Below are positions 48,150 through 56,527 of a stretch of 64,000 nucleotides of DNA, piece after piece. The notes beneath the pieces are model-generated. The model worked only from the letters and a program-made list of their open reading frames with translations. It was not told the origin of the DNA and did no database searches. Each line of letters begins with the position of its first letter. Position 1 is the first letter of the stretch. The DNA comes from Lacrimispora sp. BS-2 (GTDB lineage: Bacteria > Bacillota > Clostridia > Lachnospirales > Lachnospiraceae): NCBI RefSeq assembly GCF_040207125.1, contig NZ_CP157940.1, positions 1,178,001-1,242,000 of the forward strand, given 5' to 3'. The translations under genes were made by a program, and so were the position numbers.

Positions 48150-48183
48150 GGTACGTAACGTTACAATTTAAAATATCAAATGC

Positions 48184-48440
48184 AATGAAGGTGTAAGTAA
48201 ATCCTTATTTTCTTCCAGAGAGAAGGGGCCATCGGCTGTAAGCCCTTTTAAGTTCAGCTAAGAGATTGAATTTCCCACCGAAGCAGCATGATTGAAACCA
48301 GCGGCAGTTTAGGCGGCCGGTCTGGCGGGTAAGTCATGACGTTAATACACGTTACGTATACCGAGTGCCTGTGTGATGCACAGGAATCAGGGTGGTACCG
48401 CGAATATAGCTTCGTCCCTTTTTGGGGCGGAGCTTTTTTT
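48184..48440 (+). promoter_or_regulatory. T-box riboswitch (phenylalanine)
   Basis: The T-box core AGGGTGGTACCGCG is at 48389-48402, followed by a terminator stem GCTTCGTCCC/GGGGCGGAGC (48409-48433) and seven Ts. The AGTAA of stem I is at 48196-48200. Two TTC triplets (48253-48255 and 48272-48274) are candidate Phe specifier codons; I could not decide between them by eye. The RNA binds uncharged tRNA-Phe and then prevents termination, raising pheST expression. Confidence 0.92.
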
Positions 48441-49539: not shown

Positions 49540-51960
49540 ATGAATACACCATTATCATGGATTAAAGCATACGTTCCGGATTTAGACGTAATGGCCCAGG
49601 AATATACAGATGCAATGACGCTTACCGGAACAAAGGTTGAGGGCTATGTAGACCTGGATAAAAACTTAGAGAAAATTGTAGTTGGACAGATATTATCCAT
49701 AGAGCGTCATCCGGATGCGGATAAGTTAATCATCTGTCAGGTCAATGTTGGAGCGGAAACCGTACAGATCGTCACTGGCGCATCCAATGTAAAGACCGGA
49801 GATAAGATTCCTGTGGTATTAGATGGGGGAAAGGTGGCAGGAGGCCATGACGGCGGTCCTCTTCCGGAAGAAGGAATTAAGATCAAAAAGGGGAAGCTTA
49901 GAGGGATCGAATCCTGCGGAATGATGTGTTCCATTGAAGAACTGGGATTTTCCAGTGAAATGTATCCGGATGCTCCGGAAAGCGGAATTTACATTTTGCC
50001 TGAGGATACGGAAACAGGTGCTGATGCCATTGAGGTGCTGGGCCTCCGTGATTCCGTATTTGAATACGAAATCACCTCAAACCGTGTGGACTGCTACAGT
50101 GTAATAGGAATTGCAAGAGAAGCGGCTGCAACCTTTCATAAGACCTTTGTACCTCCGGTGGTAACGGCTACAGGCAACAGCGAGGATATCCATAACTATC
50201 TGAAGGTATCCGTAGAGGACAGCAGCCTTTGTCCCCGCTACTGCGCAAGAATGGTAAAAAATATCAAGCTCGCTCCTTCCCCGGTCTGGATGCAGAGACG
50301 CCTTGCCGCATGCGGAGTCCGCCCCATTAATAATATCGTGGACATTACAAATTATGTGATGGAAGAGTACGGACAGCCAATGCATGCCTTTGATTATGAC
50401 CTGCTTGCAAATTATGAGATCATTGTAAAACGCGCGAAAGAAGGCGACACCTTCCAGACCCTTGACGGACAGGAAAGAAAGCTGGACAGCACCATTCTCA
50501 TGATCAACGATGGGGAAAAGGCGGTAGGAATCGCCGGTATCATGGGAGGAGAGAACTCCAAGATCACCGATGAGGTGAATACCATGGTGTTTGAAAGTGC
50601 CTGCTTTGATGGAACCAATATCCGGCTTTCTTCCAAAAAAGTTGGATTAAGGACCGATGCTTCCGGCAAGTTTGAAAAAGGGCTTGACCCAAACAACGCC
50701 GAAGAAGCGATTAACCGCGCCTGTCAGCTGATTGAAGAGCTGGGAGCAGGAGAAGTCGTAGGCGGCATGATCGACATCTATCCGTCCAGGCGGGAAGGAA
50801 AAAGACTTCCCTTTGAGCCGGAAAAGATGAACAGACTTCTGGGAACTGAGATCGAACCGGAAACAATGCTTGGATACTTTAAAAAGCTGGATTTGGGATA
50901 TGATGAAGGGGCAGGTGAAATCCTCATTCCTACCTTCCGCCAGGATTTAGGCTGTATGGCAGATCTGGCTGAGGAAGTTGCCAGATTCTTTGGATATGAC
51001 AAGATCCCCGTATCCCTGCCCACAGGTGAGGCGACCACCGGCAAACTGTCCTATAAATTAAGAATAGAAGAGGCAGCCAGAGAAGTGGCGGAGTTCTGTG
51101 GATTTTCCCAGGGAATGACCTATTCCTTTGAAAGCCCCAAGGTATTTGACCGGCTGCTGATTCCGGATGACAGTCCTCTTCGTGTGACGGTGAATATATT
51201 AAATCCTTTGGGAGAGGATTTCAGCGTTATGAGGACCTCCCCTCTTCATGGAATGTTAAACTCTTTATCCACTAACTACAACCGCCGGAATAAGAATGTC
51301 CGCCTTTATGAGCTGGCCAATATTTATCTTCCAAAGGCGCTTCCATTAACAGAGCTTCCTGATGAAAGAATGCAGTTTACCCTGGGCTTTTATGGGGATG
51401 GGGATTTCTTTGATATGAAGGGCGTTGTTGAAGAATTCTTCGATAAGACGGGAATGCACAAAAAGCCTCATTATGATCCAAAGGGCGGAAAAACATTCCT
51501 TCATCCAGGGAGACAGGCAGATATTATTTATGATGGAGTGACCATCGGATATCTGGGAGAGGTTCATCCGGAGGTGGCTGACAACTATAAGATCGGGGAA
51601 CGGGCCTATGTGGCTGTGATCGATATGCCATCCATGATCCCGTTTACAAGTTTTGACCGGAAATACACCGGAATTGCAAAATATCCGGCTGTTACCAGGG
51701 ATATCAGCATGGTGGTTCCAAAGGAAATTCTGGTTGGACAGATCGAAGAGATCATCGATCAGCGTGGCGGAAAGATATTGGAAAGCTATGAGCTTTTCGA
51801 TATTTATGAAGGAACCCAGATTTTATCTGGATATAAGTCTGTTGCCTATTCCATCACCTTCCGCGCAGGTGATCATACCCTGGAGGAGCAGGAGGTTCTT
51901 GCTGTTATGAAAAAAATCCTTAACGGATTACAGGGACTGGGAATTGAACTTCGGGCATAA
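49540..51960 (+). CDS. pheT: phenylalanyl-tRNA synthetase beta subunit
   Basis: 806 residues, normal length. The N-terminal tRNA-binding OB domain (VVGQILSIERHPDADKLIIC, VTGASNVKTGDKIPVVLDGG) is followed by the B3/B4 editing domain (ITSNRVDCYSVIGIAREAAA). Next come B5 and the catalytic-like domain (QLIEELGAGEVVGG, ARFFGYDKIPVSLPTGEA). The C-terminal anticodon-binding FDX-ACB domain is AKYPAVTRDISMVVPKEI. It lies 18 bp behind pheS in the T-box-controlled operon, with a terminator 30 bp after the stop. Confidence 0.98.
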   Translation: MNTPLSWIKAYVPDLDVMAQEYTDAMTLTGTKVEGYVDLDKNLEKIVVGQILSIERHPDADKLIICQVNVGAETVQIVTGASNVKTGDKIPVVLDGGKVAGGHDGGPLPEEGIKIKKGKLRGIESCGMMCSIEELGFSSEMYPDAPESGIYILPEDTETGADAIEVLGLRDSVFEYEITSNRVDCYSVIGIAREAAATFHKTFVPPVVTATGNSEDIHNYLKVSVEDSSLCPRYCARMVKNIKLAPSPVWMQRRLAACGVRPINNIVDITNYVMEEYGQPMHAFDYDLLANYEIIVKRAKEGDTFQTLDGQERKLDSTILMINDGEKAVGIAGIMGGENSKITDEVNTMVFESACFDGTNIRLSSKKVGLRTDASGKFEKGLDPNNAEEAINRACQLIEELGAGEVVGGMIDIYPSRREGKRLPFEPEKMNRLLGTEIEPETMLGYFKKLDLGYDEGAGEILIPTFRQDLGCMADLAEEVARFFGYDKIPVSLPTGEATTGKLSYKLRIEEAAREVAEFCGFSQGMTYSFESPKVFDRLLIPDDSPLRVTVNILNPLGEDFSVMRTSPLHGMLNSLSTNYNRRNKNVRLYELANIYLPKALPLTELPDERMQFTLGFYGDGDFFDMKGVVEEFFDKTGMHKKPHYDPKGGKTFLHPGRQADIIYDGVTIGYLGEVHPEVADNYKIGERAYVAVIDMPSMIPFTSFDRKYTGIAKYPAVTRDISMVVPKEILVGQIEEIIDQRGGKILESYELFDIYEGTQILSGYKSVAYSITFRAGDHTLEEQEVLAVMKKILNGLQGLGIELRA

Positions 51961-51989
51961 AAGCCGTTTAACGTGTAAATTAATTAGGA

Positions 51990-52031
51990 AAGATGTCGGG
52001 ATGAAAGGAAAATCATCCTGGCATCTTTTTT
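51990..52031 (+). terminator. terminator of pheST
   Basis: AAGATG...GGATGA (51990-52004) pairs with TCATCC...CATCTT (52013-52027) around a small internal loop, followed by a T run. Confidence 0.75.
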
Positions 52032-52108
52032 CTTTCGTACCTGCATGGAACTGGTAAATTCCGTCAATCCTTACGGTAAGAATGTAAGAAAGGACAGGAG
52101 GCAAAAAG

Positions 52109-53311
52109 ATGTTAAACGGCCTTGATATTATAGAAATAACTGGAAGAAATGTTCGGGATTCCTGGGGATACCCGGGAGTAGAAGCTGAGGTGATCCTGGA
52201 AAACGGTGCCCATGGAAGGGCGGCGGTTTCCCTGGGAAACACCGGAAGGGCAGAGGAGCAGGCGAGGCTGGTCAATGACTGGCTTTCGGAGATCATATTG
52301 TTTGAGGATGCATCAGACCAGGGAAAAATAGACCGGATGCTTTCCCAGGCGGCAGAGGAAACAAGAGCAGAAGAAGACGGAAATCAGGGAGTTCTGGCTT
52401 TATCCATGGCAGTTGCAAGGGCAGCCGGTGCAGGACTTTGTCTTCCCCTTTACCGTTATCTGGGCGGAACCTCGGCTCCTGTGATGCCGGTTCCCATGAT
52501 GAGCATGATAAGCGGAGGAGACGGGGATAAGGGTCTGGATTTTCATGAGATCATGATCGTGCCTCAGGGAGCAAATTCCTATTCGGAAGGACTGCGCATG
52601 GGAGTGGAGATTTATCAGACATTAAAAAGGCTTTTATCCATGAGCGGCTTTAGCACCTCCACAGGAGATGGGGGCGGCTTTGAACCGAATATGAAAAATT
52701 CAGAGGAAGCACTGCATTATTTAATGGATGCCTTTATGCTTACCGGATATAAGCCGGGAGAAGATGTGCTGGTGGCCATCAATGCAGAAGCAGACCGGTT
52801 GTACGTAAAGGAGGACGGTACCTACTGTTTTTCAAAGGAAAGCAGGAAGGGCGGAATCACCATAAACAGGTCACAAAAGGATATGCTCGCCTATTATCTG
52901 AGGCTGGCGGACGGATTTCCCATCTGTGCGGTCATGAACGGTCTTTGGAAAGGAGATCTGGAGGGAAGGGAGCAAATGATGAAGCTCCTGGAGCACCGCA
53001 CCCTTCTGGTTTCCGATGATTTTGCTGCGTCCAACGCCACGGTCATTCGGATGGAACAGGCGGGGACCGTTACCGGGGCACTTGAAATGGTGGAAAAGGC
53101 AAGAAAAGCCGGACATAAGGTGATTATTGCCAGCGATGTGCAGGATACGGAAGAGTCTTTCCTTGCAGACATGGCGGCGGCTGTACATGCCGATTATGTA
53201 AAGAGCGGCGCACCGTGCAGAGGGGAATGCACAGCAAAATACAATGAACTTCTGCGCATTGAAGAATTTTACAGGAAAACCTGGCGGGCAGTCATGGAAT
53301 GTTCCGGCTGA
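52109..53311 (+). CDS. enolase paralogue lacking catalytic residues
   Basis: The 400-residue protein follows enolase from end to end: LALSMAVARAAGAGLCLPLYRYLGG, VPMMSMISGGDGDKGLDFHEIM, FSTSTGDGGGFEPNMKNSEE, LVSDDFAASN and VKSGAPCRGECTAKYNELLRIEE. Against the well-known enolase residues (E. coli numbering), the acid Glu208 is Gly (188), the base Lys341 is Arg (314), metal ligands Asp245 and Glu289 are Asn (225) and Met (276), and the SHRSGE loop reads SDVQDTEES. Glu167, Asp316 and Lys392 equivalents remain. It should not be a glycolytic enolase. AGGAGG precedes the ATG; the gene is alone after the pheST terminator. A regulatory, binding or new catalytic role is open. Confidence 0.85.
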   Translation: MLNGLDIIEITGRNVRDSWGYPGVEAEVILENGAHGRAAVSLGNTGRAEEQARLVNDWLSEIILFEDASDQGKIDRMLSQAAEETRAEEDGNQGVLALSMAVARAAGAGLCLPLYRYLGGTSAPVMPVPMMSMISGGDGDKGLDFHEIMIVPQGANSYSEGLRMGVEIYQTLKRLLSMSGFSTSTGDGGGFEPNMKNSEEALHYLMDAFMLTGYKPGEDVLVAINAEADRLYVKEDGTYCFSKESRKGGITINRSQKDMLAYYLRLADGFPICAVMNGLWKGDLEGREQMMKLLEHRTLLVSDDFAASNATVIRMEQAGTVTGALEMVEKARKAGHKVIIASDVQDTEESFLADMAAAVHADYVKSGAPCRGECTAKYNELLRIEEFYRKTWRAVMECSG

Positions 53312-53496: not shown

Positions 53497-53527
53497 ATCC
53501 TATGTTTGACTATAGGAGGTGGGAAAC

Positions 53528-53761
53528 GTGATCAGGATTATTTTATCAATCATATTTGTTATCATATGTGTTGCTTTATCAGCAATAGTCCTTTTACAGG
53601 AAGGAAAGAGTCAGGGCCTGGGTTCTATCGGCGGTATGGCAGATACCTACTGGGGCAGAAATAAAGGCCGTTCCATGGAAGGAAAACTGGAAAAATTCAC
53701 AAAATACGGAGCAGTCCTGTTTTTCATTCTGGCACTGGTACTGAATCTGAATATACTGTAA
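53528..53761 (+). CDS. secG: preprotein translocase subunit SecG
   Basis: The GTG at 53528 has AGGAGG 8 bases upstream; the GTG at 53519 overlaps that site and was rejected. The 77-residue protein has two membrane segments (IRIILSIIFVIICVALSAIVLL and AVLFFILALVLNLNIL) around the conserved loop LQEGKSQGLGSIGGMADTYW. SecG supports protein export through SecYEG. The order secG-rnr-smpB is widely conserved in Firmicutes. Confidence 0.95.
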   Translation: MIRIILSIIFVIICVALSAIVLLQEGKSQGLGSIGGMADTYWGRNKGRSMEGKLEKFTKYGAVLFFILALVLNLNIL

Positions 53762-53906: not shown

Positions 53907-56048
53907 ATGACAGAAGAACAGTTAACGCAAAGGAAAGCCATGCTTCTCCAGCTGATTCATGATCCTGCCTATGTGCCTATGAAATTAAAGGAATTAGCCA
54001 TTCTTTTTGACATTCCAAAGGAGCAGAGGGAAGATTTAAAAAAGGTACTTGATACACTTTTAGCAGAAGGAAAGATTGGCGTATCACAAAAAGGAAAATA
54101 CGGAAAGCCGGATGTCGGCTCCATTGCCGGAGTGTTTTCCGGACACTCCAAAGGCTTTGGTTTTGTATCGGTAGAAGGGCTTGATCAGGATATTTTTATT
54201 CCGGAAGATAAGACAGGCGGCGCACTTCACGGTGATACTGTGCTGATATCTGCCGAATCAAAGCCCGGTAACGGAAAAAGGGCTGAGGGCCATGTGATTA
54301 AGGTACTGGTCCATGCAAATGAGGAGATCATAGGTTATTACCAGAAAAATAAGAGTTTTGGTTTCGTCATTCCGGACAACCAGAAGGTTTCAAAGGATAT
54401 GTTCATTCCCCAGGGCAAGGACATGGGAGCTGTGACCGGTCACAAGGTGGTGGTTAAGGTTACGGATTTTGGCGGGCCGGAACGGAAACCGGAAGGGATC
54501 ATAACGGAAATCATTGGCCATGTCAATGACCCTGGCACGGATATTCTTTCTATTGTAAGAGCTTACGGACTTCCTGAGGAATTTCCGGACAGTGTGATGA
54601 AACAGGTAGGAGCAGTGCCGGATGCGGTTACCGGCAAAGACATGCAGGGACGCCTGGATTTAAGAAATTTACAGACAGTTACCATTGACGGAGAAGATGC
54701 AAAGGACCTTGACGATGCCATTACCATATCAAAAAAGGGCGGAGTCTATACCTTAGGTGTTCACATCGCTGATGTTACAAATTACGTAACAGAAAACAGT
54801 CCATTGGATGAGGAAGCTTTAAGGCGGGGCACCAGTGTTTATCTTGTGGACCGGGTAATCCCCATGCTGCCCCATAAGCTGTCAAATGGAATCTGCTCCT
54901 TAAACCAGGGAGAAGACCGGCTGGCTTTAAGCTGCATCATGGACATTGATGAAAACGGCAATGTAATGGGACACCGGATAGCGGAAACCATCATAAACGT
55001 GGACCGGAGAATGACCTATACGGCAGTCAATGCCATTATAACCGACCGGGATGAGGCGGTTATGAAGGAATACGAAGCGTTTGTTCCCATGTTTGAGCAA
55101 ATGAAGGAACTGGCTGATATTCTACGGGAAAAGAGAAAGAAGAGGGGCTCCATTGATTTTGATTTCCCGGAAACAAAGGTGATTCTTGATGAACGTGGAA
55201 AGCCTCTGGAAATCAAGCCCTATGAGAGAAATGCGGCAACAAAAATCATCGAGGATTTTATGCTGATGGCAAATGAGACGGTTGCGGAGGATTATTTCTG
55301 GCAGGAAATCCCCTTCTTATACCGTACTCATGACAATCCGGATCCGGAAAAGATGAAGAGCCTTGCAACTTTGATTAATAATTTTGGATATTCCATCCGT
55401 TTCCACAACGGTGAAGTTTACCCGAAGGAAGTCCAGAAGCTGCTTGCCAATGCAGAAGATACGCCGGAGGAGGCTCTGATCAGCCGTCTGGCCCTGCGTT
55501 CCATGAAGCAGGCCAAGTATACGGTTTCCAATACCGGGCACTTTGGTCTGGCTGCTAAATATTACACCCACTTTACCTCTCCAATCAGAAGATATCCGGA
55601 CTTACAGATCCACCGTATCATTAAGGAGAACTTAAGATCAGGCTTAGCTGAGAAGAGGATCAGCCATTACGATAAGATCCTTCAGCAGGTGTCAGTCCAG
55701 TCTTCTGCCATGGAGCGGAGGGCCGATGAAGCCGAGCGGGAGACCATTAAGCTTAAAAAGTGCGAATACATGTCCAGACACATTGGGGAAGAGTTTGACG
55801 GAGTGATTTCCGGTGTGACCAACTGGGGGCTTTATGTGGAGCTTCCTAATACCGTGGAGGGCTTGATTCATGTGAATCAGCTCCAGGATGATTATTATCA
55901 TTTTGATGAAGAGCATTATGAGCTGGTAGGAGAAATGACAAAAAAGACCTATAAACTTGGTCAGCCTATCAGGGTCATGGTGCTGGGTACGGATAAACTT
56001 TTGCGTACCATCGACTTTATTCCGGCGAAGAGTTTTGAAGAGGAATAA
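53907..56048 (+). CDS. rnr: ribonuclease R
   Basis: RNase R is a processive 3'-5' exoribonuclease that degrades structured and defective RNA. In 713 residues one sees the N-terminal winged helix, two cold-shock domains ([37 protein letters not shown]), the RNB catalytic core with [19 protein letters not shown] and [19 protein letters not shown], and the C-terminal S1 domain ([20 protein letters not shown]). It shares the transcript with smpB, its partner in trans-translation quality control. Confidence 0.97.
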
Positions 56049-56062
56049 CAGGAGGAACGAAA

Positions 56063-56527
56063 ATGGGGAAAGAGAGTTTCAAATTGATTGCCAATAACAA
56101 GAAGGCATATCACGATTATTTTATTGATGAAAAATACGAAGCCGGCATCGAACTGGCCGGAACAGAAGTAAAATCCATCCGCATGGGCAAATGCAGCGTA
56201 AAGGAATCCTTTGTCAAAATTGATAAAGGAGAGGTTTATGTTTGTGGCATGAACATCAGCCCTTATGAAAAAGGGAATATCTTTAACAAGGATCCGCTGA
56301 GAGTCAGAAAGCTGCTGCTTCACAAGGCTGAGATCGGAAAGCTGGATGCAAAGATCGCCCAGAAGGGATATACCCTGGTTCCTCTGCAGGTATATTTTAA
56401 AGGCAGCCTTGTGAAGGTGGAGATCGGCCTTGCCAGAGGTAAAAAGCTATACGATAAAAGAGATGACATTGCTAAAAAGGATCAGAAAAGAGAACTGGAA
56501 AGAGACTTTAAGGTGAGAAATCTTTAA
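56063..56527 (+). CDS. smpB: SsrA-binding protein SmpB
   Basis: The 154-residue OB-fold protein shows [43 protein letters not shown]-type [15 protein letters not shown] and the basic C-terminal tail ([20 protein letters not shown]) that enters the ribosome. SmpB delivers tmRNA to stalled ribosomes. CAGGAGG precedes the ATG. The tmRNA gene, often just downstream, was not recognised in this window. Confidence 0.97.

Follow-up and report, generated by a model that had tools for sequence, protein, structure and literature searches.

A selectively maintained enolase without its catalytic residues occupies the ancestral enolase slot in Lacrimispora

The window analyzed here, a stretch of 64,000 nucleotides from Lacrimispora sp. 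BS-2, contains the gene order pheS-pheT-enoP-secG-rnr-smpB on the forward strand. enoP (52109..53311), with its ATG at 52109 and its stop codon ending at 53311, encodes a protein of 400 amino acids that Pfam, alignment and an AF2 model assign to the enolases and that is probably a non-catalytic member of type B. A Shine-Dalgarno sequence, AGGAGG (52096..52101), stands 7 nt before the ATG, in agreement with the intact frame and perfect ribosome site reported in a preliminary description of this DNA. Upstream of the slot lies pheT (49540..51960), followed by a terminator-like hairpin with a T-run (51986..52031) that separates enoP from pheST; the hairpin was found by folding (dG -25.5, z -7.8), and a consensus terminator scan of the forward strand found none. 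Downstream of the slot lies secG (53519..53761), followed by two further members of the conserved eno neighbourhood, rnr (53907..56048), which encodes RNase R, and smpB (56063..56527). The codon usage of enoP is ordinary (0.640, against 0.606-0.715 for its other neighbours apart from ilvC, with ilvC and the type-A enolase gene of the same genome, enoA, as the reference). A T-box leader precedes pheS at 48176-48422 of the window (118 bits with RF00230) and recurs at L141, L146, L147 and L160 among the eight loci searched. In some genomes of the genus, rnr and smpB are about 1.3 kb apart (L061, 9753-11033; L178, 1024-2410), a stretch that the window does not have.

The enoP leader contains the word ATCCTTAC (52067..52074, forward strand), which is exact in 18 of the 19 enoP loci of the genus, with L023 differing in the last two bases, and which also precedes the degenerate eno of two other genera (genomes G057 and G070). 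The word is common to the leaders of some intact type-B eno genes as well, being found in 4 of the 35 intact type-B-side genes examined (L144, L145, L146 and L147), with a variant in L143. These four leaders could cover the ribosome site by folding, in the putative form AAAATGGCTATCCTTAC...AAGGAGGCCATTTT. An Rfam search returned no family covering the enoP leader or the word, and the predicted fold of the enoP leader was nothing unusual (z -0.38).

Pfam matches to Enolase_C (E=1.4e-57) and Enolase_N (E=6.9e-16), together with the AF2 model and a PDB match, identify the N-domain and beta-alpha barrel of enolase in enoP, and the predicted fold is intact. The protein scores 288.1 bits against TIGR01060 (eno), below the cut-off of 300 for a functional-enolase equivalog. 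Compared with functional enolases (phosphopyruvate hydratase, EC 4.2.1.11; TIGR01060; B. subtilis 4a3r; S. aureus 5boe), enoP lacks the acid, the base, two metal ligands and the phosphate loop, and its catalytic loop 1 is altered. The active-site columns were read from alignments with 4a3r and with the canonical enolase of the same genome (L002). For the equivalent residues we use what we take to be the yeast numbering. The former catalytic acid, E211, is Gly188 (codon 52670..52672), and the former base, K345, is Arg314 (53048..53050). One of the three carboxylate Mg ligands remains: D246 has become Asn225 (52781..52783) and E295 Met276 (52934..52936), and D320 is retained here as Asp303 (53015..53017), but not in every relative. 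Ser342-Asp343-Val344 (53132..53140) replaces H373/R374/S375 of the phosphate loop, so that IASDVQD stands where SHRSGE is expected; the SGASTGE catalytic loop is altered and 19 residues after it are lost. All these codons lie on the forward strand. The equivalents of E168 (E147) and K396 (K365) are retained. These alignments agree with the preliminary description, which had claimed the changes of the acid Glu to Gly, of the base Lys to Arg, of two Mg ligands (Asp to Asn and Glu to Met) and of the SHRSGE substrate loop. The neighbouring motifs GGF, NGL, SDD and GAP align plainly, and a check of three alignments found no catalytic residue at a displaced position. The sequence supports a non-catalytic protein, which probably performs a different, non-enzymatic job.

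The same description had asked whether a second, canonical eno exists in the genome. A search of the genome found two enolases, enoP and enoA (G000:C1:953557-954852); the latter carries all 12 catalytic residues and is about 37% identical to enoP. The type-A gene sits away from the ancestral enolase slot, and its counterparts in eight other genera read are 82-85% identical to enoA. Two genomes (G038 and G218) hold two type-A enolases each, 71-82% identical to L002, indicating that type A also duplicates.

Other Lachnospiraceae genera show the gene order of the window around an intact enolase (L145, L146 and L147). The shorter order eno-secG-rnr-smpB is found in additional genera and in genomes of the Bacillus type (L075, L080 and L101), and some type-B copies are located elsewhere (e.g., L151, L154 and L155). 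Because this order is common to genera with an intact eno, enoP occupies the ancestral enolase slot. The preliminary description had treated the gene as a paralogue beside pheST. The adjacency holds, but enoP is not an extra copy that landed there: it fills the slot pheT-eno-secG-rnr-smpB, and the canonical eno represents a separate lineage. Two other genera likewise carry the degenerate form in this slot (L141 of G057 and L160 of G070), and each also has a type-A enolase (85-86% identity).

Phylogenetic analysis agrees with the gene slot. A careful tree of 50 rows unites all its degenerate rows in a single clade within type B (100/100), apart from the type-A clade (100/100); a quick tree of 85 rows likewise places a single degenerate clade inside type B, away from type A. 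The rows left out of the careful tree include, among others, the probable chimera P0125 and the long branches P0126 and P0054. The AU test rejected a tree in which the degenerate clade joins type A (log-likelihood 49 lower, p-AU 3.0e-6), and still more strongly one in which it joins the type-A copies of its own genomes; an origin of enoP by local duplication of the type-A gene was rejected on this basis. By descent, enoP belongs to the type-B, ancestral-locus lineage, although the length of the degenerate branch leaves its precise sister group among the type-B enolases uncertain. P0125, considered as an intermediate with an intact last third, was dropped; it is near-identical to P0122 over about the first 289 residues and canonical beyond, and is therefore probably a chimera.

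A deletion of 19-23 residues right after catalytic loop 1 is common to all 60 degenerate rows. In the form of G057 (L032/P0055) all three metal ligands are kept, but Lys replaces the acid, His the base and Phe-Cys the His-Arg pair; the Lacrimispora forms additionally lack metal ligands as well as 14 loop and helix residues. The first-branching degenerate line is the G057 type in the careful tree and the G070 type in the quick tree. In 10 of the 60 rows a further 21-73 barrel residues are gone, and much of the fold may therefore not be needed. One of these rows, P0056 (Clostridium sp. E02, genome G011), had been reported in two pieces but, checked as DNA, proved to be one open frame with an in-frame deletion, so that a frameshifted pseudogene was rejected; its predicted model keeps the rest of the fold, with the lowest confidence around the deletion.

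Within the genus, enoP is present in 24 of 25 genomes, and all 24 also give at least one additional match resembling enoA, at 33-39% identity to enoP. The remaining genome, G010, is 67% complete and gives no enolase match at all. Identity to the enoP of the window falls to 57% within the genus. The frame is open in 23 of the 24 genomes, the exception being G024, where it is split. Here an assembly error is more likely than a pseudogene, since the breaks in this stretch (L178) also run through pheT, pheS and the gene that follows smpB; the genome is listed as 89% complete and 6% contaminated. Every one of the 26 genomes examined that carry the degenerate form (24 genus members plus G057 and G070) has a type-A-like match. 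Across the family, 243 of 299 genomes give an enolase match with a type-A query, and 109 of the 299 have a type-A enolase among the matches listed (threshold at least 640 bits). In 26 other type-A genomes read, each of a different genus, the second enolase carries all 12 residues without exception; 16 of these copies lie beside secG-rnr-smpB, one beside pheST only and nine elsewhere. This set excludes six two-match genomes (G033, G038, G058, G091, G218 and G222), and in G038 and G218 the listed second copy is itself type A.

The gene is under purifying selection as a protein. Among eight genomes of the genus, dN/dS by the Nei-Gojobori method was 0.044-0.169 for enoP (28 pairs), 0.022-0.082 for pheT (28 pairs) and 0.032-0.047 for enoA (4 usable pairs, without the rows of G006, G018, G019 and G020, where the query matched a paralogue). 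For the pair G000-G005, the values were 0.095, 0.048 and 0.032, respectively. Selection, which the preliminary description had deduced, is thus borne out, although the constraint on enoP is two- to three-fold weaker than that on pheT or enoA. Of the interpretation given there, the loss of catalysis (by sequence) and the selection stand, whereas the extra copy does not, nor does the binding of a phospho-acid or a new chemistry, discussed below. An enzyme homologue that has lost its catalytic residues and keeps an intact frame under purifying selection has the marks of a pseudoenzyme, and we call enoP a conserved pseudoenzyme descended from the resident gene copy for an enzyme of central metabolism.

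To describe what is conserved, 23 Lacrimispora-type degenerates were compared with 46 intact type-B enolases, each set non-redundant at 85%; the 23 came from 50 input rows that leave out shorter and more distant degenerates. The 11 active-site columns had a mean conservation of 0.37 in the degenerates versus 0.69 at sites matched for conservation in intact enolases (p 0.0002). The dimer elements beta1-3, alpha5 and alpha12 reached 0.73 versus 0.60 at matched sites (0 of 5000 draws as high), and in an unmatched test alpha12 carried most of the signal (p 0.009, compared with 0.089 for alpha5 and 0.27 for beta1-3). R13, E25, E167 and R383, which we take to be the equivalents of the inter-subunit charged residues R8, E20, E188 and R414 of yeast, are retained in 22-23 of the 23 degenerates. 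The dimer elements are those named as the subunit interface in passages of the S. aureus enolase paper (PMC4667285), and were assigned by secondary structure, not by coordinates. Derived changes fixed in 23 of 23 degenerates include G362D, Q363Y, C165G, A107G and S372G, and 38 derived positions have a conservation of at least 0.8. In these alignments the pocket is thus released and the pairing parts are held, and the degenerate family has fixed features of its own. The 21 octamer-interface positions taken from the same passages of PMC4667285 were somewhat better conserved than matched sites (p 0.028). The derived fixed sites were enriched neither at these positions (3/38, Fisher p 0.44) nor in the dimer elements (8/38, p 0.83), and we do not press the octamer interface as a new binding face.

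Overall, we propose that the type-B enolase of the slot became redundant for glycolysis owing to a second enolase in the genome, the catalytically complete type A, which would have taken over first. On this view, the resident copy lost its catalytic loop, acid and base, and in most lines the metal site too, in an ancestor shared by Lacrimispora with two neighbouring genera, and the gene stayed in its old place. enoP would still be made as a folded protein, most likely dimeric and able to bind partners, and most likely serves as a non-catalytic binding or scaffold protein that continues a non-glycolytic task of the old enolase. We lean towards this reading, if only modestly. A released pocket and held pairing parts are better explained by a non-catalytic dimer that binds proteins than by new chemistry. 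The task might be RNA decay, next to RNase R and SmpB, which is the most natural guess from the gene neighbourhood and by analogy with enolase in other bacteria.

In the parts of the literature that bear on this guess, E. coli RNase E binds the cleft of the enolase dimer (2fym/5ohg; PMC5758883), and PMC4667285 mentions enolase as part of the degradosome of B. subtilis and S. aureus. The dimer cleft is used for binding in E. coli, and the dimer elements are well kept in enoP; however, the E. coli protein is a normal enolase, whereas for enoP the likeness is drawn from the rnr neighbourhood and interface conservation. A parallel in gene place, fast evolution and proposed ancillary role comes from Methanococci and Thermococci (arCOG01169/01170). 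According to PMC4390880, the enolase gene that stayed in its ancestral neighbourhood evolves fast there and may have no more than an ancillary role left, whereas glycolysis is attributed to a second copy elsewhere. The archaeal in-place enolases described there lie in the ribosomal superoperon, whereas enoP lies in the bacterial pheT-secG-rnr-smpB slot. enoP is no member of the archaeal enolase-like model NF006223/PRK08350 (39.9 bits, cut-off 624), and a genome search with this model gave 37.3 bits for enoP and 61.7 for enoA.

Enolase is reported to act in RNA decay and in other non-glycolytic roles, and its central place in glycolysis hinders deletion studies. A lineage whose resident enolase is stripped of catalysis yet selected would offer a genetic handle on these roles. 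Tentatively, and with rather less confidence than in the binding role itself, we suggest a natural separation of functions, in which catalysis was removed and only the second, non-glycolytic task of the resident enolase was kept. If so, the enoP family would isolate what enolase does beside rnr and smpB, and deletion of enoP would expose that task with glycolysis untouched.

The main rival explanation is that enoP forms mixed dimers or octamers with the type-A enolase as a regulatory subunit, tuning its activity or stability. The four charged interface residues have identical counterparts in enoA, and the type-A-like match accompanies every degenerate-bearing genome examined. However, these residues are equally fixed in the 46 intact type-B enolases and therefore express no preference for mixed over own dimers. 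Moreover, the low identity between enoA and enoP speaks against pairing, as does the finding that, wherever type A and a second copy were read in other genera (26 of 26), both enolases are catalytic. We regard a regulatory subunit as unlikely, though worth keeping in view.

Alternatively, enoP may be a relic in slow decay that does little or nothing, as could be suspected from its faster evolution relative to its neighbours, the long stem branch of the degenerate clade and the repeated barrel deletions. Decay of this kind is at odds with a dN/dS of about 0.1, with the single open frame in all genus genomes but the one that points to an assembly error, with the 38 conserved derived positions and with the kept ribosome site and leader word, which together make it distinctly improbable.

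It had also been suggested in the preliminary description that the protein binds a phospho-acid or performs new chemistry in the old pocket. The barrel is kept in most members, and of the 23 degenerates 19 have K at the K396 position and all have E or D at the E168 position. Nevertheless, the substrate and metal positions vary by species: the commonest letters are G/S/D/C/F/A for the acid, E/R/K/Q/G/S for the base, and N/W/S/H/Y, M/I/V/F/L/T and D/Q/E/P/S/K for the three metal columns, and no new fixed constellation was found in the acid, base and metal columns of these 23 proteins. The Lacrimispora-type rows have lost R374 and S375, which bind phosphate, and several members delete the strands that would carry the site. 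We therefore set this suggestion aside as very unlikely. Finally, the conserved leader word could be explained if what is selected at this locus were features of its DNA or mRNA, such as spacing or the leader, instead of the protein, but low dN/dS across the whole open reading frame indicates selection on the enoP protein and makes this idea scarcely credible.

Public records label the degenerate proteins enolase, phosphopyruvate hydratase or hypothetical protein; P0013, P0014, P0018 and P0020, named enolase or phosphopyruvate hydratase, could mislead metabolic models. Among the open-access papers listed in a literature search, the titles and abstract openings showed nothing on a non-catalytic bacterial enolase of this lineage, and no paper in that open-access collection links Lacrimispora with enolase. 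P0053, P0151 and P0126 are strongly diverged relatives of the degenerate enolase with few catalytic residues left. Outside the degenerate clade, the type-B enolase of the Lachnospiraceae MAG C.10_6 (L104) reads PHEGDVEKHRSR at the 12 catalytic positions, with changes to the acid, two metal ligands and others, and perhaps represents an independent loss of catalytic positions.
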